A program made the position numbers and the translations under genes. A stretch of DNA of 9,845 nt, from positions 1 to 9,845 of the forward strand of contig JBKPCR010000542.1 of assembly GCA_046727435.1 (NCBI GenBank), written 5' to 3'. The DNA comes from CAVPRW01 sp046727435 [NCBI: bacterium] (GTDB lineage: Bacteria > Tectomicrobia > Entotheonellia > J063). Below the pieces are notes generated by a model. That model saw only the letters and a program-made list of their open reading frames with translations. It was not told the origin of the DNA and searched no databases. Numbering within the stretch: the stretch's first letter is position 1; the number at the start of each line of letters is the position of its first letter. Below, piece by piece: positions 388 through 9,845 of this stretch.

Positions 388-653
388 TTCCCCCCCCACG
401 GGCGTAAAGAATGTGCGATCTTCGTCACTTCTGATACTCCATTGAAAATCAATCGCCAGGCAGTCTGTCCCGGTTCGAGATGGACGCGGTACCCTAAACG
501 CTGCATCGGTCGAGTCAAACGATCCACGAAATGGTCGCGCCGTTGTTTGTCAAGATAGCTGGGTCCCAGTTCGCAATAAGGTTCATGACGGGAGAGCATG
601 TGAAACGCAATGAGGACGAAGGCATGGGCGACGGCCATGTTCGGCCGTTTTCT
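375..653 (-). pseudogene. IS110-family transposase, C-terminal remnant
   Basis: The frame encodes RKRPN followed by AVAHAFVLIAFHML, RHEPY, ELGPSYLD and a helical end MQRLGYRVHLEPG. This order (conserved AVAH helix, a hydrophobic helix, P-Y-x-E-L-G-x-x-Y-x-D, then LGYxVxLEP) is the C-terminal end of IS110-family DEDD transposases, as I know the family. The normal protein is 300-400 residues; only about the last 70 plus a short tail (to the stop at 377-375) remain, so the DEDD RuvC-like catalytic domain and the serine-containing domain start are gone. An ATG at 638 exists but no sensible ribosome binding site or N-terminus goes with it. At 654-656 an in-frame TAG closes the frame and the sequence switches directly to a WD40-protein fragment. 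The element cannot transpose by itself. Confidence 0.75.
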
Positions 654-655
654 CT

Positions 656-901
656 ACGCTCATAGGGGAGATCGGTGCCCACAAATCGGTGCCATTCGTC
701 CCACGTCAGATTCCGCCAGACCTGCTCGCACACCATCTCTGTAAGGGTCTCCGTGCGCGCGATCCAGATCCGAATCGTCATGCCTTCACTCCCCGAGGCT
801 AGTCGCTGCCCGTCCGGGCTCAAGGCCACCGACCAGACCTCATCCTCACGGCCGCACAGGGGATGGCTGAAATACGGGCGCTCAGCACGGTCGGTAACGC
901 G
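656..901 (-). pseudogene. WD40-repeat protein, C-terminal remnant
   Basis: Translating from just after a stop at 904-902 gives part of a WD40 blade (PLCGREDEVWSVALSPDGQ, then RLASGSEGMTIRIW) followed by VWRNLTWDEWHRFVGTDLPYER. The second part is the short conserved tail (RNLT-x-x-E/DW-x-x-x-G-x-x-x-PYER) found after the last blade in many bacterial WD40 proteins, often fused to kinase, NACHT or caspase-like modules; there it normally continues T-C-P-N-L. Here homology stops after PYER at about 656 and the frame runs on through transposase DNA to a stop at 515. The GTG at 829 is the first possible start but lies inside a blade. Everything upstream, which would be many blades and any effector domain, is missing. 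WD40 blades normally mediate protein contacts; this copy is not expected to make a functional protein. Confidence 0.75.
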
Positions 902-1412: not shown

Positions 1413-2681
1413 TCATAACCGCCTCATGGTGTCCAAAAACGTCCAGGCAGCCTCGGGAATCGACGTAAAACGGACCATCACCCCGCACGCGTCTTCGGGC
1501 AGTGTTTCGACCACCTTGGCAAACAGATCCACCGGCACCACCTCGCCGGAGGGGCGCAGGAGGTGCAGCTTGAGATTACTGAAGGCCGCCATCGGCTGGT
1601 CTACGTGCAGCTCCGCCGTCTTAGTGCCGAGCTTGACCAGACGCCCGCCATACATCGTGCTGCCGGCAAATTTCCCCTCCAGGACGGTATAGCGCAGGTC
1701 GAGCGCCTGGGGCAAGGCGACCAGCATCTCCATCGGCGTTGGCAGGCACAGGGAATGGGCACCCTCAATCGCACTGACGGCATAGAGAGTAATGGGTGCT
1801 GCTACCCCTTGGGGGGCCACGGTCAGCTGGTGGGACACCGTCAGAAGAGCAGCCGTTTCCGCATAGGTGGTAGGGGAAATGAGGATCTGCCCGCCCGTGG
1901 TGTACGACTCAATACGCCCGGTGAGGTTCACTGCGCTGCCGACCACGCCATACTTGGTGCGTTGCTGGGAGCCAATATTGCCCACCACCACCTCCCCGGT
2001 GTGGATGCCAATGCCCATTTCAATGTCTGGCAGCCCGGCCCGGCGATTGGGCGCGTTGCTCTCGTCCATGCGCAACTGCATGGCAAGGGCGCAGGCGACG
2101 GCCCGTTCGGCATCGTCGTCGCGGCTGAGGGGGGCCCCAAACAGCACCAGCAGGCCATCGCCCAGAATCTCGATGATCGTGCCCCGGTAGGCGAGAATGA
2201 CGTCCACCATCGCCTCCAGATAGCGATTGAGAAAGCGCATGACCTCCTGCGCTTCGAGGCACTCGGCGAGGGTCGTAAAGCCCCGCAAATCCGACATCAA
2301 AATGGTCACCTTGCGCTTGGCCCCGCCGAGCTCTAGGCCCTCGGGGGCGTCGAGCAGTTGCGTCACCACCTCTTCCGAGACATAGCGGCCGAACGTCTCG
2401 CGGATAAATTGACTCCGCCGGGCGAGGGCTTCCCCCTGCTTCTGCAGGTCGGCTTCGATGGCGTCGCCGTGGTCTGTGGTCAGCTTCAGTACGGTTTCCA
2501 GATCATCGCACTCATGCTGCAGGGCTTCCGAGAGGTCATCGGCATGGTCGGTGGCCATCTCTAACATGACTTCCAAGTCATGTTTTTCCTGCTCCAGGGC
2601 GGCGACGCGCTGACGCAGGGCCTGCACTTCTGCCAACAAGGCTTTGCGGGACGGTCCTCTGGGCGGCTGTGTGGCAGACAT
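1413..2681 (-). CDS. Class III nucleotide cyclase with N-terminal coiled coil and C-terminal PilZ-like domain
   Basis: This protein of 422 residues should make a cyclic nucleotide from ATP or GTP in the cytoplasm. Residues about 12-95 are a charged coiled coil with a duplicated 21-residue unit (35-55 and 60-80). The cyclase domain spans about 120-300: metal aspartates D131 (MSDLRGFT) and D175 (LGDGLLVLFG), the HTGEVVVG loop, and transition-state N252 and R256 (VNLTGRIE). The base-selecting positions are unusual, E171 and G245 instead of Lys with Asp or Thr, so the substrate is uncertain. Residues about 327-422 look like a PilZ-type beta barrel (GGRLVKLG, VMVRFTSI) but the D/N-x-S-x-x-G motif for c-di-GMP is not seen. 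I chose the ATG at 2681, which shares its A with the TGA of the STAS gene (TGATG), over a GTG at 2684; GGAG lies eight bases upstream. The overlap implies coupled translation, making this the likely output of the partner-switching module. No membrane segment. Confidence 0.9.
   Translation of the reverse strand: MSATQPPRGPSRKALLAEVQALRQRVAALEQEKHDLEVMLEMATDHADDLSEALQHECDDLETVLKLTTDHGDAIEADLQKQGEALARRSQFIRETFGRYVSEEVVTQLLDAPEGLELGGAKRKVTILMSDLRGFTTLAECLEAQEVMRFLNRYLEAMVDVILAYRGTIIEILGDGLLVLFGAPLSRDDDAERAVACALAMQLRMDESNAPNRRAGLPDIEMGIGIHTGEVVVGNIGSQQRTKYGVVGSAVNLTGRIESYTTGGQILISPTTYAETAALLTVSHQLTVAPQGVAAPITLYAVSAIEGAHSLCLPTPMEMLVALPQALDLRYTVLEGKFAGSTMYGGRLVKLGTKTAELHVDQPMAAFSNLKLHLLRPSGEVVPVDLFAKVVETLPEDACGVMVRFTSIPEAAWTFLDTMRRL
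2442..2579 (-). repeat. Duplicated 21-residue coiled-coil unit in the cyclase
   Basis: Residues 35-55 (DLEVMLEMATDHADDLSEAL plus Q) and 60-80 (DLETVLKLTTDHGDAIEADL plus Q) share the pattern DLE-x-x-L-x-x-x-T-D-H-x-D-x-x-x-x-x-L-Q. They are separated by HECD. The similarity is stronger in protein than in DNA, so it is an old, selected repeat, probably forming a parallel dimerisation stalk ahead of the cyclase domain. The regular T-D-H-x-D signature suggests a specific contact surface instead of a generic coiled coil. Confidence 0.7.
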
Positions 2682-3025
2682 CACTCAATCTCCAGTTGCA
2701 ACCCGGGCAACAGGCGTTGGAAATTCTTCAAGGACTTCTCTTGCCAGGGCACGCGATGGCTGCCCTTCATCACGACCTGGGTGGCATTGTCCTGACGGAC
2801 GTGCAGGACAAATTTCGCCAGCGTATTGATCCCCGAGCTGTTGAGAAACTGGAGCATCCGCAGGTCCAGCGTCAGCGTCGCGGGTTTGGCATCGGCGGCG
2901 GCAGTGAGCACCTGCAAGATCGGGGCATATTCCTCCGTGCCCCGGAGCCGAAACGAACCCTGGCAGATCACCGTCGCCGTGGCAGCGTCGTAGCGCACCT
3001 GATAGTCCTCGTGGATGATGTCCAT
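2681..3025 (-). CDS. STAS-domain anti-anti-sigma-like protein, slr1659 type
   Basis: This 114-residue cytoplasmic protein is a single STAS domain. The hallmark is LDLRMLQFLNSSGINTLAKF at 53-72, where SpoIIAA-type proteins have a D-S-S-G; S63 aligns with the serine phosphorylated in SpoIIAA, while the preceding Asp is Asn here (N62). The start (MDIIHEDYQVRYD), the EEYAPI helix and the end (VPWQEKSLKNFQRLLPGLQLE) match the slr1659-type regulators known from cyanobacteria and other bacteria, which sit next to an slr1658-type protein and a SpoIIE phosphatase as here. By family logic it would be phosphorylated by a HATPase partner, dephosphorylated by the PP2C protein, and bind its partner according to that state. 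The ATG at 3025 has AAAGGAA seven bases upstream. It starts 47 bases after the HATPase gene and ends overlapping the cyclase start by one base. Its true partner is inferred. Confidence 0.88.
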   Translation of the reverse strand: MDIIHEDYQVRYDAATATVICQGSFRLRGTEEYAPILQVLTAAADAKPATLTLDLRMLQFLNSSGINTLAKFVLHVRQDNATQVVMKGSHRVPWQEKSLKNFQRLLPGLQLEIE

Positions 3026-3072
3026 AGCAGCGTTCCTTTTCCCAGCTCGCGTATGCCTCTGACGCGCCCCCC

Positions 3073-3624
3073 TCAGATGGACAGGCGTACCATCGTGGTC
3101 ACCGTGACCACGTCAGGATCCTGCAGAGACGGGGCGAATTTCCAGGCCAAGGCCGCGCCATAATCATGCAGCATCGTCAGGTAGCCCAAGCCATCCGCCT
3201 GCGCGAGTTGCGCCATGTAGCGGGTGTCAATATCCTCGGTCAACAGCCGTTCAATGGTCTGCTGAAATGCCGGAACGGCGTGCGGATCGACGCTGTTGGT
3301 CACATAGAAGCTGACGGCATCGGACTCGAGATACATGGCAATACTGATCGGGTGTTGCGACAGGGTATAACTGAACTTCATGGCATTTTCCAGCAGCTCA
3401 TTGGCCACGTAACTGACCGCACTCTTGAGATCCGCCTGGCGCTCGGCCCCAGCACGGTCGTCGCCGGGAAAGAACGTGCTGAGGTAATCGGCGAGAAAAT
3501 CGGCGGACAGGCCATTATTGCGCCACCGCTGCTGAATAGGGATGGAGGTCGGAGAAAAGCCGATCTCCAGATACTCGCCGTGATCGTCTTTCCGTTCAAT
3601 GAAATCGCCAAATATCCGTGTCAT
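3073..3624 (-). CDS. GHKL/HATPase-like regulator, slr1658 type (anti-sigma-kinase-like)
   Basis: This 183-residue soluble protein has an N-terminal signature IFGDFIE, then GFSPTSIPIQQRWRNNGLSAD and FLADYLSTFFPGDD, which matches slr1658-type regulators. A clear GHKL N-box follows at 75-84 (NELLENAMKF, N80). The usual G1 box D-x-G-x-G is not visible: the corresponding strand reads FYVTNSVDP (106-114), and only a short glycine motif GLGYLTM (145-151) remains, so ATP binding or kinase activity is uncertain. In the classical scheme such a protein phosphorylates the STAS partner and binds either it or the output protein. I start at the ATG at 3624 because related proteins begin with M-x-x-IFGDFIE; a GTG at 3651 would add nine residues, MGHRWRDNA. 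The ribosome binding site is weak (GGCGAG). It lies 51 bases after the phosphatase gene and 47 bases before the STAS gene. Confidence 0.87.
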   Translation of the reverse strand: MTRIFGDFIERKDDHGEYLEIGFSPTSIPIQQRWRNNGLSADFLADYLSTFFPGDDRAGAERQADLKSAVSYVANELLENAMKFSYTLSQHPISIAMYLESDAVSFYVTNSVDPHAVPAFQQTIERLLTEDIDTRYMAQLAQADGLGYLTMLHDYGAALAWKFAPSLQDPDVVTVTTMVRLSI

Positions 3625-3675
3625 AGCATTATCTCGCCATCGATGGCCCACAGGTTACGCTCACAAGTCTTGCTC

Positions 3676-5673
3676 TCACCGTTGCTTCATGATCAGCAAG
3701 GTGATGTCATCATACACGATATGCTGATCGATGTGGTGTCGCACGTCGTCGATGATCGCCTCCCGAATGTCCCTTGCCGAGCCCTGGCAGTGGCGCCGCA
3801 TCTGCTCGCACAGGCGCTCAAGCCCATACAGCTCGCGCGCGGCGTTTTCGGCTTCGGTTACGCCATCGGTGTAGAGGGCCACCACATCCCCCGAGTCCAG
3901 ACGAACTTCCGCTTGCGCGATGAAGGGGGTGATGTCCGGCTCGAGTCCGATCGGAAATCCCAGATCGATCGTATCGATGCGCTCCACCCGCCCATCGGCG
4001 CGTACCACCACCAGTTCCTCATGCTGACCGCTGATGCGCAACCAGCCATCCTCATAGTCGAGCAAGACCAGGGTCAGGTTCTTGTCGGATTGCATACGCC
4101 GGACATTTTCATAAATCGTGCGATTCAGGGTGGTGAAAAACCGCACGGGGTCGGTTTCTCGGTGGGTTAACAGGGTGCGCACCGACGTTTGCACCATAAT
4201 CATCAACACGCCGCTCTCTAACCCATGGCCAGTCACGTCACCCATGGCGATCTTGACCAAGCCACCCTCCTGGAGCACGTCGTAATAGTCACCCCCGACT
4301 TCGGTGGCCGGTTGCATGAAGCTGGCGATCTCCAAGCCCTGAATGGTCTGGAATTCCGGCTCTTTTGGCAGAATCATTTCCTGCAAGCGCCGGGTAACGG
4401 CCAGTTCCGCCCCCATGCGCAGGTTCTCGGCTTCTAAGCGGCGATTCAGCTCGGTAATATCCTGATTGGCCTTGATCAGGGCCGCCGCGACATGATTGAA
4501 GGACCGTACCACCTGCCCAAGCTCATCCGTGTTGTCCAGGACGATGAGTTGATCCAGTTGGCCGGTTGCCAGCTGCTGCGAGGCTCCCGCCAAGACCTGC
4601 ACCGTCCGCATCACGGCCAGATAAAAGCTGATAAACAGGTAGATCACCCCCACCAGCACCACGCAGACAAACCCCCAGACAAATCGCCATTTGCGGTCAA
4701 ACCCCTGGATGCGCCGGTGCAGGAGATCATCCAGCTCGGTCACCACCTGTTGCCAGAGGTCCATGCCGATCTGCAGTGTGCGGTTGGTGGAGGGCCCATC
4801 ATCCGGGGACACCATGGGCGAGTTGCCTTGGGCTATCTGGTCGATGTCAGCTATTTGCTGATGCAGGGTGTTGATAAATGCCTCGACCGCCCCCGATAAT
4901 CGGGGATACACATTGCGGGCGGGATTGTTCTCATAGGCAAACGTCATGCTGCGCGCCAGCTCTTGCAGCTGATCCTGCAACCGGCCAGAGAGGGTAATGA
5001 GCCGGGCCCGCACCTCGGTCTGCTCCGCTAGGGCGGCGGCACTCCCCTGTCGAGGCTGGGCGGGCATCATCTCCTTGCCCAGCAGGTGCAACTGGCTCTG
5101 GAGATCCTGTATTTTGGGGAGCGTGAGCAGGCTGACGCTCATGAGGTAATAGGTATCGAGGTCGGGATCCAAAATCAGGTTGGAGGTATTCCCGACATGC
5201 GCATAGAGCTCCCGCACCTTATTGAGAACTAGGTTGTATTGACTGATGTGCTGTTCCAGGGTCAGTTGGTCTTGCCTGGCTTGCAATTGCTGCCAGGAAG
5301 CCCTGAGGGACTGCAGGCGTTCCGTCGTGTGCAGCACCCTGCTCAGTTGTTGATCAACGCGAGCAACCTCCTTCAGGGACTGATTAACTCGGGCCTGTTG
5401 CTGCACCAGGTCCTGTGGCGTCATTTCCTCCACTGCTAGGCGATAGGAGGCCAGCCGACTCTGGGAAATGTCTTCCAGCACCTGCCTGAGGGGGCGCAAG
5501 TAGGTGGTGCCATATAATTCTTTTTGGGAAAACTCCCGTTGCAGGCTTAACTCGGTCAGCAGCAGATACATCACCAGGACGAGGGGGAGGATGAACAGCA
5601 GGCTGATCAGCAGAAACTTTTGCGGATATGTCAGGCGATTCATCAGGGCAATCGCCGGATCAAAGGGTTTCAT
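3676..5673 (-). CDS. Membrane-bound PP2C/SpoIIE-type phosphatase with HAMP domain
   Basis: This 665-residue protein is built as an RsbU/SpoIIE-like serine phosphatase driven by a membrane sensor. Residues 20-39 (FLLISLLFILPLVLVMYLLL) are TM1, 40-328 a mainly helical sensor region that should face the periplasm, 330-354 TM2, 355-410 a HAMP domain (DELGQVVRSFN), and 411-435 a short coiled coil (RRLEAENL). The PP2C domain runs about 440-665 with metal aspartates D462 (VGGDYYD), D479 (GDVTGHG), D603 (YTDGVTEAEN) and D656 (YDDITLL). It is expected to dephosphorylate the serine of the STAS protein two genes downstream. The ATG at 5673 follows GGAAGG by 11 bases and gives MKPFDPAIALMNRLTYPQKF, a start common to sensor proteins of this kind; the open frame extends 27 codons to a GTG at 5754, but that part lacks similarity to anything I recognise and abuts the upstream gene. 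An 80-base gap precedes it. Confidence 0.93.
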   Translation of the reverse strand: MKPFDPAIALMNRLTYPQKFLLISLLFILPLVLVMYLLLTELSLQREFSQKELYGTTYLRPLRQVLEDISQSRLASYRLAVEEMTPQDLVQQQARVNQSLKEVARVDQQLSRVLHTTERLQSLRASWQQLQARQDQLTLEQHISQYNLVLNKVRELYAHVGNTSNLILDPDLDTYYLMSVSLLTLPKIQDLQSQLHLLGKEMMPAQPRQGSAAALAEQTEVRARLITLSGRLQDQLQELARSMTFAYENNPARNVYPRLSGAVEAFINTLHQQIADIDQIAQGNSPMVSPDDGPSTNRTLQIGMDLWQQVVTELDDLLHRRIQGFDRKWRFVWGFVCVVLVGVIYLFISFYLAVMRTVQVLAGASQQLATGQLDQLIVLDNTDELGQVVRSFNHVAAALIKANQDITELNRRLEAENLRMGAELAVTRRLQEMILPKEPEFQTIQGLEIASFMQPATEVGGDYYDVLQEGGLVKIAMGDVTGHGLESGVLMIMVQTSVRTLLTHRETDPVRFFTTLNRTIYENVRRMQSDKNLTLVLLDYEDGWLRISGQHEELVVVRADGRVERIDTIDLGFPIGLEPDITPFIAQAEVRLDSGDVVALYTDGVTEAENAARELYGLERLCEQMRRHCQGSARDIREAIIDDVRHHIDQHIVYDDITLLIMKQR

Positions 5674-5753: not shown

Positions 5754-8700
5754 CTATCCCCCCAATGTCTCCAGTAGAGCCTGGGCCTCCTGCAGGTCGG
5801 CGGTGTCAAAGCCCTCGGTGAACCAGCCGTGGATAGGTGCGAGCAGGTCGTAGGCCTCGGTGCGTTTGCCCTGCTGCCGCCACAGCCGACTCAGGCTCAT
5901 GGCAGCCCGCAGCTCCAGCGCTTTAGCTTGCTGACGGCGAGCGACGTCGAGGGCTTGATAAAAACAGGGTTGCACCTCTTCTGGAGGGGCGGCCTGCTGC
6001 CGCAAGAGTTCCCCCTTGAGGTGGTATAACTCTACCACATAGAACCGCTCCCCGCTTGTGTGCGCTGCTGCCAATGCCTCGGCCAGCGCGCGCAGTCCCT
6101 CTTCAGGCTGGCCGATGGTCCCAGACGCCTCGGCCAACAAGGCCAGCTGATGCGACAGTCCATGCGCGGCCCCCGTGGCCCGGTAGGCCTCCAGACCCTG
6201 GTGCATCTGCGCCATTCCTGCCTCTGCCTGTCCCTGTGCCACGAGCGCCCAGCCCCGAAGCACCGTGCCGTTCGCCAACCGGTACGGAAACCCCTGCTCA
6301 CTGGCGAGTCCCATCAGGGCCTCAACCCGGTCATCAGCCGCCTGCACCTCCCGCCGGTTCTGATGCAGCCGAGCCGCCCAGAACAAGGCCCTCGCCTGAC
6401 TTAAGGGGTGCGACAGCTCCCCGGCCAGCGTCAAGGCCTCGTGCATGCGCTGTAGGGCCTGATCCGGATAGCCCAGAAACCACGGTACCCAGGCCATGTG
6501 CGTGAGACACACGACCCCTGGATCTTCGCCATACAGGAAGGTCAGGGTGCGATGCTGTCGGGGGTCGTACAGGGCCCACTCTTGCTCCAGGTGCACGCGG
6601 GCCTCGGCAAATGCGCCCAGCCAGGTCGCGCTCCCGGCCATCACGCCGTGAGTTTTCAGGAGGTGGGCCGGGTCGTGCTGGCGTTGGGCCAGCGTGAGCA
6701 ACTGCTCCGCCAGCTCCCGCGCCGTCTGGATCCCGGCCCGCGCCACGTAAAACCCGTAAAGTCCCGACAGCGCTGAGAAGAGCTGCGGCGTCTCGCCCAT
6801 CTGCGTGCAGAGCGCTCGCGCCCGGGCATACGCCCGTTCCACCTCCGGGGCCGCGAAGCCCTTGACGGCCAGCATCGGTACACCCAGGGCCAGTTGCAGC
6901 GTGAGTTCATGCTGGGTCCGCTCTGGCGTGTGCGGGACGTGCGTGAGGACCTCCAGACCCTTGGTGAGGTGGCTGATCGCTTCGAGATGCGCCGAGCGCT
7001 CGTTCGCCCGCTGGCCGGCCTGCTGCCAGTAGCCAATGGCCTGCACGTGGAGACCGGCTTCGGTGTAGTGCTGCGCCACCCATTCGGGCTGGCGCTCCGC
7101 AATCTCGGGAAACCGCTCCACCGCCGTCCGGGCAATCGTCTGGTGGTACTGCTGTCGTGTCGGCTTCAATAACGCCTGATAGGCGGCCTCCTGGATGAGG
7201 GCGTGCTTAAAGCTATACGTGGCCTGTCGTCCCATGCCGCGTTGGTACACCAGCTCGGCCTCGACCAGCCGCCCCAGTTCCCGCTCCAGCGCCGCCTCAT
7301 CCAGCTGCGACACCGCCTGCAGCAGCTCACAGGGAAATTGCCTCCCGATGGTGGCCGCCAATTGCGCAATCCCCTTGGCGGTGACCAGCCGGTCCAGTCG
7401 GGCCATGAGGGAATCGTGCAAGGTCGGGGGAATGGCGAAAGCTGGCAAGGGGCCGGTGAGCTCGTAGCGGTCCTCTGCCGCTCGGAGCGCGCCTGACTCC
7501 AGAACCGTCTTGGTCAACTCTTCCACAAACAGGGGCACGCCGTCGCTCTGGGTGACGAGCTGGTGGAGGACCTCCCCTGGCAGGGCTTTCCCCCGGGCCA
7601 CCCGTGACACCAGCTGCTGAACCTGAGGACGGGGTAAACGGCCGAGCGTGAGCTGGGTCAGGTGGGCCCTGGAGGTCCAGGGTGGGCGGAACTCCGGGCG
7701 CATGGTGAGCAGGGTGAAGATCCGGGCGGTGGCGGACTGGTCGATCAAGCGCGTGAGCAGCTCGAGCGTGGAGGGATCGACCCAGTGCAGGTCTTCGACA
7801 ATAAACACTACGGGCTGCTGTTCGGCCAGGGCCAGCAGCACCGCCAGCACGGCTTCTAGTGTCTGCTGTCGCTGCCGTGCCGCGGTGAGGGTCAGGCGGA
7901 GATAGCCCTCGGGCATCGGGAGTGACAGCAGCGAGGCCAAGAAAGGGACCACGTCTGGCAAGACGACGGGGTGAGGTGCCAAGAACCACTCCAGCTTTCT
8001 GAGCCGGTCCTCAGGGCTCTCGTCCCGCTCAAACCCTAGCGTTCGCTGCCACAGCTCGATCACGGGAGACCACGGACTGTTCTGGGCGTACGGGGAGCCG
8101 CGGCATTCCAGCCGGATATGGGAGTGGCCGCCGATCTGAGCTTGCACTTCCTGGACGAGGCGTGATTTGCCGATCCCCGCCTCCCCACTGAGCACCACGA
8201 CCTGGCCCATGCCCTCTTGCACCTGGGCCCACCGCTCCAACAGCAGCCCCACCTCCCGCTCCCGCCCTACCAGGGGGGTGAGACCTGTGGTCGCCTCGAC
8301 ATCGAAGCGACTCCGGATCGTACGCTCCCCCAGGATGTGATAGATCGGCATCGGCGTGGTGACACCCTTCAGCGTGTAAGGCCCCAGGTCTTCCTCCGTG
8401 AAAGACGCCTGAACCAGCCGATGCGTGGCGGCACTGATCACCACCGTGTCGGGTGCGGCCAGTCCCTGGAGCCGGGCGGCGACGTTCGGCGTGTCGCCTA
8501 GGGCCAATTGTTCATGTCGGTCGCCGCCCCCCATCTCCCCCACGACTACGAGGCCCGTGTCGATGCCGACGCGCACGGCGAGCGGCATGCCTTGATCCTG
8601 CTCGAGGCGCCTCTTCAACGGCCCCACGGCCTCGATCATTCCCAAACCCGCCCGTACCGCCCGCTGCGCATCATCTTCGTGCGCCTGCGGATAGCCGAAG

Positions 8701-9185
8701 TAGACGAGCAGACCATCGCCGAGATACTGGGCGATATGCCCCTCATAGCGCGCAATGACCCGAGCGCAGACCTCTTGATAGGCCCGCACCACCTCGCGCC
8801 ACGCTTCCGGGTCGAGCTGGCGGGCGAGCACGGTCGAGTCCACCAGGTCGCAGAACAGCACGGTCAGCTGGCGGCGTTCGGCCTCCGGGGCTCGAGGCGC
8901 TGGCGATGGCGAGCCCTCCTGTAGGGCTTGGCTGACCCCAGTGTCGGGCGGCGCAAAGGGTTCAGTCGCTCCTGAACTGGGGTGCGTGACCGCCGCGGCA
9001 CCCACCCAGACGAGGACTCTGCCGTCCTCATCCGTCGCGAGATGCTTGGCATAGATCAGATCTTCCTTGAGCGCTTCGAGGGTGTCGTCATCGAGCTGCA
9101 GCCGGAGTTTCAGCACGCGGTAGGAGAGGCGCCGTTCCCGCTGGAGGAGTGCGATGGCTTGATTGAGCAGAGCGTCATAGTCCAT
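5754..9185 (-). CDS. Class III cyclase-AAA/NACHT-like ATPase-TPR multidomain protein
   Basis: This 1143-residue protein has four parts. Residues 1-61 form a small helical, possibly winged-helix-like domain with one predicted strand at its end (GRVLVWVG). A low-complexity linker (63-102) precedes a class III cyclase domain at about 104-285: metal aspartates D113 (FCDLVDST) and D157 (YLGDGLLVYFG), transition-state N234 and R238. The base-selecting positions are Q153 and L227, not the Lys and Asp/Thr of adenylate cyclases. An ATPase follows with Walker A GEAGIGKS at 334-341 and Walker B VFIVEDLHWVD around 460-470. The C-terminal 430 or so residues are TPR/helical repeats (LGYPDQALQRMHEAL, AVTLEP-type units with G-x-x-x-A-x-x-x-x pattern). 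This architecture is common in large environmental genomes. The start at 9185 follows GGAGGGG by five bases and overlaps the upstream stop (TGATG); a longer frame exists 98 codons upstream but is low-complexity Pro/Arg-rich shadow of the neighbour. It may act as a STAND-type sensor; ligand unknown. Confidence 0.93.
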   Translation of the reverse strand: MDYDALLNQAIALLQRERRLSYRVLKLRLQLDDDTLEALKEDLIYAKHLATDEDGRVLVWVGAAAVTHPSSGATEPFAPPDTGVSQALQEGSPSPAPRAPEAERRQLTVLFCDLVDSTVLARQLDPEAWREVVRAYQEVCARVIARYEGHIAQYLGDGLLVYFGYPQAHEDDAQRAVRAGLGMIEAVGPLKRRLEQDQGMPLAVRVGIDTGLVVVGEMGGGDRHEQLALGDTPNVAARLQGLAAPDTVVISAATHRLVQASFTEEDLGPYTLKGVTTPMPIYHILGERTIRSRFDVEATTGLTPLVGREREVGLLLERWAQVQEGMGQVVVLSGEAGIGKSRLVQEVQAQIGGHSHIRLECRGSPYAQNSPWSPVIELWQRTLGFERDESPEDRLRKLEWFLAPHPVVLPDVVPFLASLLSLPMPEGYLRLTLTAARQRQQTLEAVLAVLLALAEQQPVVFIVEDLHWVDPSTLELLTRLIDQSATARIFTLLTMRPEFRPPWTSRAHLTQLTLGRLPRPQVQQLVSRVARGKALPGEVLHQLVTQSDGVPLFVEELTKTVLESGALRAAEDRYELTGPLPAFAIPPTLHDSLMARLDRLVTAKGIAQLAATIGRQFPCELLQAVSQLDEAALERELGRLVEAELVYQRGMGRQATYSFKHALIQEAAYQALLKPTRQQYHQTIARTAVERFPEIAERQPEWVAQHYTEAGLHVQAIGYWQQAGQRANERSAHLEAISHLTKGLEVLTHVPHTPERTQHELTLQLALGVPMLAVKGFAAPEVERAYARARALCTQMGETPQLFSALSGLYGFYVARAGIQTARELAEQLLTLAQRQHDPAHLLKTHGVMAGSATWLGAFAEARVHLEQEWALYDPRQHRTLTFLYGEDPGVVCLTHMAWVPWFLGYPDQALQRMHEALTLAGELSHPLSQARALFWAARLHQNRREVQAADDRVEALMGLASEQGFPYRLANGTVLRGWALVAQGQAEAGMAQMHQGLEAYRATGAAHGLSHQLALLAEASGTIGQPEEGLRALAEALAAAHTSGERFYVVELYHLKGELLRQQAAPPEEVQPCFYQALDVARRQQAKALELRAAMSLSRLWRQQGKRTEAYDLLAPIHGWFTEGFDTADLQEAQALLETLGG

Positions 9186-9845
9186 CACCGCCCCTCCACC
9201 TGTCCCAGTGCGGCCTCCGCCTGCGACAGCCAGAAGGTCATGTCCATGGCGCGGTAGAGGCCGATGGCGGCGGACAGTGCGACATGCGCCTGCTCCCCTT
9301 GGCCGGTTGTGGCGTAGAGGGTACCAAGACCCAGGTGGCAGTGGGCCTGGAGTGGGCGCATGGCGAGCTCTGTCGCGAGTGTTTGCGCCTGCCGGTAGCA
9401 GGCCTCGGCCTGGTGATAGGCTGGGGGGTCGCCCTGCACGGCGATGTCGCCGAGGAGGCGAAGGGCATAGGCCTCCCATCCCCGTTCCCTGTGCACTTGT
9501 GAGAGATCGAAGGCGTGCATCGCGAGCCCTCTCGCGTCCTCTACGCGGCCGGCTAACAGATACACCTCGCCCAGAGAGGCGAGGCGGTGTGACTGGAAGT
9601 CCATCATGCTTATTGATGCGGCGTGCGCCACCGCCTGCTCTAGGTGCGGCAGCGCCTCGGAGATACGCCCGGATAGCGCATACGCGGCTCCTAAGGCCGC
9701 AGCAACCAAGGGAAATAAGAGCGGGATCTGCCAGTCCTGATAGAGCCCAAAGCCCCGCTCGAGGAGGGGGATAGCCTGGGGCAGGTCGCCTTGGCGGAGG
9801 TATAGAAAGCCGAGCGCCGAATAGGCGTTGATGAGGCTATCTGGT
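9185..9845 (-). CDS. TPR-repeat protein, C-terminal part; N-terminus beyond window
   Basis: The frame is open from the right edge for 220 codons to a TGA at 9187-9185, so the true start lies outside. All of it is helical repeat: about five to six TPR-like units, for example LGFLYLRQGDLPQAIPLLER, ALGAAYALSGRISEALPHLE, SLGEVYLLAGRVEDARGLA, RLLGDIAVQGDPPAYHQAE and HLGLGTLYATTGQGEQAHVA, ending FWLSQAEAALGQVEGR. The first recognisable start inside the window is a TTG at 9709, which is in the middle of repeats and is not the real start. The tail strongly resembles the C-terminal end of cyclase-ATPase-TPR proteins like the next gene, so it is probably the end of a tandem relative; that needs the missing sequence. 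It shares one base with the next gene (TGATG), implying coupled translation and the same transcript. Confidence 0.85.
   Translation of the reverse strand, partial: PDSLINAYSALGFLYLRQGDLPQAIPLLERGFGLYQDWQIPLLFPLVAAALGAAYALSGRISEALPHLEQAVAHAASISMMDFQSHRLASLGEVYLLAGRVEDARGLAMHAFDLSQVHRERGWEAYALRLLGDIAVQGDPPAYHQAEACYRQAQTLATELAMRPLQAHCHLGLGTLYATTGQGEQAHVALSAAIGLYRAMDMTFWLSQAEAALGQVEGR

Follow-up and report, generated by a model that had tools for sequence, protein, structure and literature searches.

Gene cluster in the window

We analysed a 9,845-nucleotide stretch of DNA (contig JBKPCR010000542.1 of assembly GCA_046727435.1, from the bacterium CAVPRW01 sp046727435), hereafter the window, which carries on its minus strand the genes for a HAMP-PP2C phosphatase, an slr1658-family protein, an slr1659-family STAS protein and a class III nucleotide cyclase with an N-terminal stalk (Table 1), and we consider here how the first three may switch the fourth. 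The genes are separated by 51 and 47 bases, followed by a TGATG overlap between the STAS stop and the cyclase start (the list of open reading frames, ORFs, starts the cyclase at the GTG at 2684, the ATG within TGATG being the following codon). An earlier annotation made from the sequence alone (the first-pass annotation) had described this row with these gaps and this overlap, and both the ORF map and the family matches bore it out. It had also taken the last gene for a nucleotide cyclase and not a sigma factor, with which our searches agree: the product matches PF00211 (Guanylate_cyc) at an E-value of 3e-26 and Synechocystis Cya2 (2w01) at 9.7e-61, and profile scans of five window proteins identified no sigma factor of the kind that an RsbUVW/SpoIIA-type cluster would contain.

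Table 1. Features of the gene cluster, in coordinates of the window
Feature	Position	Strand	Details
HAMP-PP2C phosphatase gene	3676..5673	minus	665 residues; SiaA-like, SpoIIE-type, membrane; start at 5673
HAMP domain	4477..4614	minus	phosphatase residues 354-399
PP2C/SpoIIE phosphatase domain	3685..4263	minus	phosphatase residues 471-663
slr1658-family gene	3073..3624	minus	183 residues; NF052618, NF047703
slr1659-family STAS gene	2681..3025	minus	114 residues; NF047705
Ser63, putative phosphosite	2837..2839	minus	in block F60-L-N-S-S-G-I-N67
Class III nucleotide cyclase gene with N-terminal stalk	1413..2684	minus	423 residues; PF00211, Cya2 2w01
Docking motif copy 1, putative	2538..2579	minus	cyclase residues 36-49, DLEVMLEMATDHAD; profile A4
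Docking motif copy 2, putative	2463..2504	minus	cyclase residues 61-74, DLETVLKLTTDHGD; 25 residues after copy 1
Cyclase catalytic domain	1860..2315	minus	residues 124-275; metal D132 and D176, N253, R257
Glu172	2169..2171	minus	aligned with Cya2 E488 (sets GTP preference)
Cyclase C-terminal region, earlier labelled PilZ	1413..1769	minus	no PilZ profile match

A helix motif shared by genes downstream of slr1659

Both motif copies of the cyclase lie inside one helix that AlphaFold predicts for residues 13-98 (ten-residue means of the predicted local distance difference test, pLDDT, of about 69-89), so that two like motifs sit on one long helical stalk, where they may serve in binding. The shared motif is about DLEILLETTTEHSD, with EKADLEILLETTTEHSD..EA.L as a longer consensus. 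To place it among relatives, we scanned genome contigs with an slr1659 alignment, kept the best 80 of at least 417 relatives and mapped 82 slr1659 loci (these 80 and two plasmid loci, L001 and L002). The downstream gene was defined as one on the same strand starting within 700 bases, unlabelled ORFs shorter than 130 residues being passed over; 63 of the 82 loci have such a gene and 19 do not (18 of the 80, plus L002). Among the Pfam matches listed for 64 downstream proteins, the window included, class III cyclase domains occur in 25, HisKA in 24, GGDEF in 5 and PAS_9 in 40, and further outputs are PAS-ParA (L004, L005), GAF (L037) and PAS-only proteins (L027, L051). Outside the window, 24 of the 63 downstream proteins carry a Guanylate_cyc domain. 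By the count that the first-pass annotation had proposed, a cyclase is thus a recurrent neighbour of the slr1658-slr1659 pair, although the annotation's view of the output as a cyclase proved too narrow, since the motif also heads histidine kinases, GGDEF, GGDEF-EAL and PAS-ParA proteins.

Profile A4 was built from 34 of 51 N-terminal fragments, using a row-picking pattern in which D28, L29 and E30 were fixed and the choice of residues at positions 33, 37 and 39 was restricted. It matches 56 of the 63 downstream genes, which makes the N-terminal coiled coil, already singled out in the first-pass annotation as the coupling point, the element that they share. A loose pattern matches 53 of the 63, and only 3 of 642 other genes of at least 130 residues in the loci, all three within the same gene cluster; the seven downstream genes without the motif include a SulP transporter gene and a second slr1658. 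Of the 34 A4 rows, all keep H39 and 33 keep D41, which lies outside the pattern. We cross-checked the motif between groups: a profile of 22 cyanobacterial rows matched 16 of 777 ORFs of non-cyanobacterial loci, 12 of them the gene directly downstream of slr1659, and one of the 12 other rows matched 47 of 2060 ORFs of cyanobacterial loci, 44 of them that same gene. All matches of both profiles fell inside the slr1659 cluster, every locus searched being an slr1659 neighbourhood. As a described Pfam family the motif was rejected (the window N-terminus gave weak matches, mostly to coiled-coil families and all under the cut-off), and in solved structures the matches listed (60 of 64) were mostly generic coiled coils, with no SiaD among them.

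Several loci carry the motif in other settings. The nearest relative here of the window cyclase, in a Candidatus Tectomicrobia genome (L023:7279-8806), has it in a tandem array of several copies, in a reading frame that seems to be broken in this assembly, and a 768-residue PAS-GGDEF protein (L137:101-2407) has five motif segments. At L073:5212-6375 a PP2C phosphatase bears the motif at its own N-terminus, suggesting that the phosphatase can dock too. On a Rhizobium plasmid (L002:2558-9956), PP2C, slr1658-like and slr1659-like genes lie upstream of bcsA, and by eye no motif gene was seen among ORFs of at least 150 residues between these genes and bcsA.

Co-occurrence of the motif and slr1659 across genomes

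As proximity to slr1659 had guided the choice of motif rows, we tested whole genomes. A motif match at E<=0.001 was present in all 20 slr1659-locus genomes searched (L010 left out). We then took 146 cyanobacterial genomes (the phylum of L016, Microcoleus) and 42 genomes from the order of L013 (Candidatus Albibeggiatoa, Beggiatoa-like). In cyanobacteria, slr1659 was over its cut-off in 31 of the 146 genomes, 68 having some slr1659 match at E<=0.001; at E<=1e-5 the motif profile was found in 25 of the 31 genomes with slr1659 and in 0 of the 115 without (Fisher p 8e-23). The order of L013 gave 26 of 33 with slr1659 and 0 of 9 without (Fisher p 3e-5). Kinship among the genomes makes both p values too small, and it is the empty cell in both tables that counts. 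Within both sampled groups the motif is, by sequence, confined to genomes with slr1659. Another four genomes, from the phylum to which L023 belongs, yielded no match to the motif (slr1659 was not searched in those four).

The 38 motif proteins of the cyanobacteria comprised 21 directly downstream of slr1659, 10 otherwise within 5 kb and 7 elsewhere; for the 69 of the order of L013 these numbers were 34, 7 and 28. Of the motif proteins that the genome searches had yielded, we aligned 40 (6 nearer ones and 34 of the 35 lying elsewhere, the 35th coming from G100), and the only near-invariant columns were the first Met and five motif positions. Pfam searches with ten of the 40 identified GGDEF, GGDEF-EAL, hybrid kinase, PAS or HAMP proteins. 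In three cyanobacterial loci (L105:2131-4003, L107:3251-5201 and L122:253-2125) a motif-GGDEF gene with the architecture of SiaD, slr1658 and slr1659 lie in a row. Two Pseudanabaena genomes carry motif-GGDEF genes distant from slr1659 (L100:1294-2151 and L103:1297-2145) and an slr1658-slr1659 pair with no adjoining output gene.

The STAS protein and its putative kinase and phosphatase

The window slr1659 protein matches slr1659_superfam (NF047705) at 4.4e-44, with 149.3 bits against a curated cut-off of 100. Its AlphaFold model (pLDDT 93.9) retrieved Pseudomonas aeruginosa SiaC chains at ranks 1-4 in Foldseek (E 3e-5 to 2e-4), and in VIA-align the best match was again SiaC (Z 12.7 over 113 residues). 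The Pfam family of SiaC, PF09345 (DUF1987), is touched at E<=0.1 by 30 of 43 slr1659 rows, the window included, with a best value of 1.5e-4. The model of slr1659 has a STAS/SiaC-like fold, and we propose that slr1659 is a SiaC-like docking protein. The block around Ser63 is identical in 43 of 43 slr1659 rows, which is partly an effect of selection, FLNSSGIN having been among the two patterns of the row scan. In the model, helix 63-79 begins with S63 (other STAS proteins match within Z 1 of SiaC). In PMC8457831, the residues of SiaC at its interface with the SiaD stalk are Y65, N67, T68, S69 and I71, to which F60, N62, S63, S64 and I66 of slr1659 would correspond if the offset between the two proteins is as we place it. 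Elsewhere, two slr1659 matches lie in one open frame (G167:C72:2101-2775, G168:C128:22108-22800 and G008:C1:1949-2629), which may pre-pair two docking proteins.

The window phosphatase matches PF07228 (SpoIIE-type PP2C) at 1.2e-38 and PF00672 (HAMP) at 1.5e-7, has two hydrophobic stretches (residues 21-39 and about 336-361) and retains the PP2C metal motifs GGDYYD, GDVTGHG, LYTDG and DDITL. Its PP2C aspartates are spaced by 17, 124 and 53 residues, those of P. aeruginosa SiaA by 17, 126 and 53. The SiaA model NF038263 matched it at 2.6e-13 but with 49.4 bits against a curated cut-off of 700, which leaves it outside the SiaA family. We propose it as the candidate enzyme that dephosphorylates slr1659.

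For slr1658 the matches were NF052618 (slr1658_cyano) at 2.9e-69, with 232.5 bits against a curated cut-off of 200, and NF047703 at 3.4e-63. The N-box residues E76 and N80 are invariant across 37 aligned rows, of which 35 match DUF6272 and 18 match HATPase_c at E<=0.1; in the same scan the window row matched HATPase_c_2 alone (0.015), without DUF6272. We take DUF6272 to be the family of SiaB; it was found in 0 of 14 control genomes. We propose slr1658 as the candidate kinase of slr1659, in the role of SiaB.

Catalytic domain and predicted product of the cyclase

The catalytic domain, nearest to that of Synechocystis Cya2, has the two metal aspartates (D132 and D176) and the transition-state Asn and Arg (N253 and R257) of class III cyclases. 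At the position of Cya2 E488, where guanylyl-specific enzymes have Glu, it has E172, and G246 is what we take to be its second base-contact position. In alignment A8 this pair is E and G in the window and L023, and K/R with T/D in the 14 other slr1659-linked cyclases that it covered (of 24). We therefore predict, from the Cya2-type Glu, that the window cyclase is GTP-specific and forms cyclic guanosine monophosphate (cGMP), and that the other aligned slr1659-linked cyclases form cyclic adenosine monophosphate (cAMP). Judged by these residues, one and the same stalk motif has been combined with two types of cyclase. That the window cyclase instead makes cAMP, and the switch sets cAMP, would fit the ATP-type residues in the 14 other slr1659-linked cyclases of the alignment (of 24) and the fact that bacterial class III cyclases more often form cAMP. 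We consider this unlikely, as E172 is the counterpart of E488 in the guanylyl cyclase Cya2, whose E488K variant is an adenylyl cyclase that forms cAMP (PMC5995499).

The first-pass annotation had placed a PilZ domain at the C-terminus, a label that our searches did not support. No PilZ match was found in Pfam for residues 310-423 at E<=10 (HMMER filters drop most weak matches), and from residue 301 on the AlphaFold model consists of helices with no beta-barrel, at low confidence (ten-residue pLDDT means of 56 or less). Among 2972 ORFs of 83 loci, the region resembles only that of L023.

Proposed switch and alternative explanations

We think it probable that the window module works as a SiaABCD-like phosphoswitch and that its output, a class III cyclase, is switched through docking motifs in the stalk. 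The membrane HAMP-PP2C phosphatase and the slr1658 kinase would set the phosphorylation state of Ser63 of slr1659; unphosphorylated slr1659 would dock on the two helical motif copies that the cyclase dimer carries in its N-terminal stalk, altering the stalk geometry and turning on the class III cyclase, with cGMP as the predicted product. Binding of slr1659 would accordingly activate the cyclase, and phosphorylation of Ser63 would release slr1659. In other bacteria, the docking motif would act as a portable connector through which the same switch could control different output enzymes. Going further, the DLExLLExTTEHSD helix could be a universal docking tag read by slr1659, so that phosphorylation of a single Ser would set several second-messenger and two-component outputs at once; the tagged enzymes would be class III cyclases, hybrid histidine kinases, GGDEF, GGDEF-EAL and PAS-ParA ATPase proteins and once a PP2C, encoded beside slr1659 or elsewhere in the genome. 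Towards this wider proposal we lean only slightly.

Several observations weigh against the docking switch. In VIA-align, STAS anti-sigma antagonists tie with SiaC (Z 12.2, 12.0 and 11.8 vs 12.7), the window slr1659 protein scores 16 bits against PF09345 (gathering score 24.5), the window slr1658 sequence has no DxGxG box, and the slr1658 profile retrieved no SiaB chain from the PDB at E<=1. Nor does the motif profile pick up the SiaD stalk, and the interface may therefore be analogous and not homologous. As to the motif counts, the row-picking pattern accounts for D28, L29 and E30 being invariant in A4; to this add the choice of rows beside slr1659 and the kinship of the genomes, both described above. 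Eighteen of the 80 loci have no qualifying same-strand downstream gene and 6 more have one without the motif. At the genome level, 6 of the 31 and 7 of the 33 slr1659 genomes have no motif match at the cut-off; a closer look at the stretches around slr1659 in these 13 brought up a motif-GGDEF gene for G034 and, for G186, a weak motif kinase, but no motif gene for the other 11 (for G187, one of three slr1659 contigs was covered).

A plainer account would make the conserved helix a mere dimerisation stalk, kept by common operon descent while slr1658 and slr1659 act on another target. The motif does form part of a long predicted helix, and the heptads preceding it weakly match ordinary coiled coils. 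Common descent, however, sits poorly with outputs from unlike families, with a motif found on two distinct cyclase types and with 40 proteins that share just the motif positions and the first Met; its H39 and D41 are polar and conserved, and it is absent from the 124 sampled genomes without slr1659. We hold this account to be quite improbable. Still less do we expect a classical Rsb-type arrangement, in which slr1658 is the anti-sigma factor, slr1659 its antagonist and a distant sigma factor the main target, with the cyclase a passenger or side target. The STAS antagonist fold of slr1659 (Z 12.2 to 8ih8, a UsfX-RsfB entry, and 12.0 to 4qtp) and the weak HATPase likeness of slr1658 relatives speak for it, but no sigma factor is linked among the five window proteins scanned, and the gene that recurs beside slr1659 encodes a motif protein.

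A further question is which protein reads the motif. If it were slr1658, with slr1659 releasing slr1658 as in sigma/anti-sigma exchange, one could point to the 35 of 56 motif loci in which slr1658 is also present. Yet in 19 cyanobacterial loci slr1659 is accompanied by a motif gene but by no neighbouring slr1658 (a 20th, L004, was left out because of an unassigned gap at that place); in 18 the motif gene is a histidine kinase by pattern and in one (L012) it runs off the contig. Being close relatives, these loci amount to roughly a single case, and slr1658 could act from another site in the genome. In the solved relative, moreover, the stalk binder is SiaC (PMC8457831). This precedent and the 19 loci lead us to infer that slr1659 is the binder; an exchange led by slr1658 seems to us a rather poor prospect.

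Neighbouring genes

Upstream of the operon on the minus strand, 80 bases before the PP2C start, lies a cyclase-AAA gene (5754-9185), a second class III cyclase beside the switch, whose product comes near the TOMM kinase/cyclase model (650.6 bits vs a cut-off of 705.75). Immediately upstream of it is an open frame with TPR repeats (9185-9709, minus; PF13424 6e-12). At 515-829 (minus) there is a weakly WD40-like fragment (PF00400 1.2e-4, under its cut-off), perhaps a remnant.

Comparison with known systems

In RsbU/RsbV/RsbW and SpoIIE/SpoIIAA/SpoIIAB, a PP2C phosphatase, a HATPase kinase and a STAS protein act on a sigma factor. The STAS fold is the same as that of slr1659, the difference being that no sigma factor is linked in the window.

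The window pair belongs to NCBIfam families named after slr1658-slr1659 of Synechocystis PCC 6803. Disruption of slr1658 there reduces recovery from iron limitation (PMC7555055), and in the passages of open-licence literature covered we found no output partner of the pair. The motif-GGDEF gene just before slr1658-slr1659 in L105, L107 and L122 would be a first candidate for that partner. The window module offers a concrete and testable partner type for slr1658/slr1659, for which a mutant phenotype has been reported in Synechocystis but the literature covered names no target. The catalytic domain of Synechocystis Cya2 (2w01) resembles that of the window cyclase, including the Glu at the base-selecting position, and the two differ in that Cya2 has a CHASE2 membrane sensor (PMC5995499) and the window cyclase a stalk with docking motifs.

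A cyclase output of partner switching is not new in principle: besides SiaABCD, PMC8457831 summarises HsbA-HsbD (P. aeruginosa) and BgrSTUWV-BgrR (Sinorhizobium meliloti), in which partner-switching STAS proteins act on diguanylate cyclases. These two differ from the window in that output, and we set them beside it by description only. The first-pass annotation had considered a cyclase-PilZ output as possibly undescribed; the cyclase half has these precedents and the PilZ half found no support. We found neither a class III cyclase output of partner switching nor this motif in open-licence literature (mostly titles and abstract starts), no match there to the motif strings or DUF6272, and no mention of a cyclase in the STAS-only review PMC8256260. 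Class III output and portable motif thus appear undescribed in the open-licence literature searched.

The closest system is SiaABCD of P. aeruginosa, with a phosphatase, a kinase, a STAS-like protein and a diguanylate cyclase, for which SiaC bound to the SiaD stalk has been solved (PMC8457831, PMC7647112). In the crystal, four SiaC lie on two motifs of each of two stalks; SiaC binding converts an inactive SiaD pentamer into an active dimer, and phosphorylation of SiaC at T68 prevents binding to SiaD (PMC8457831). The order SiaA, SiaB, SiaC, SiaD parallels that of PP2C, slr1658, slr1659 and output in the window, both STAS proteins have a block of the form N-(T/S)-S at the phosphosite (putative in slr1659), SiaD and the window cyclase each have two motifs per stalk, and the slr1659 model ranked nearest SiaC in the PDB. 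The hydrophobic SiaD contacts V78, I81, Y85 and M88 (residue numbers of PMC8457831) may also be spaced like motif positions 33, 36, 40 and 43. An alignment of SiaD (7e6g_A) with a motif-GGDEF protein was discarded, as it starts only at residue 90, beyond the motif. The outputs differ, a GGDEF diguanylate cyclase there and, in the window, a class III cyclase with GTP as its predicted substrate.

SiaC-SiaD, the sole solved case, may exemplify a general principle in which short helical tags link serine phosphorylation to histidine kinases, cyclic nucleotides or cyclic di-GMP (c-di-GMP). Synthetic signalling could profit as well, since such a tag would place a dimeric enzyme under the control of a phosphoswitch. 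Because both family cut-offs failed, we do not place the window proteins in the SiaA or SiaC families, and file the module as one of the SiaABCD kind by its proposed mechanism.

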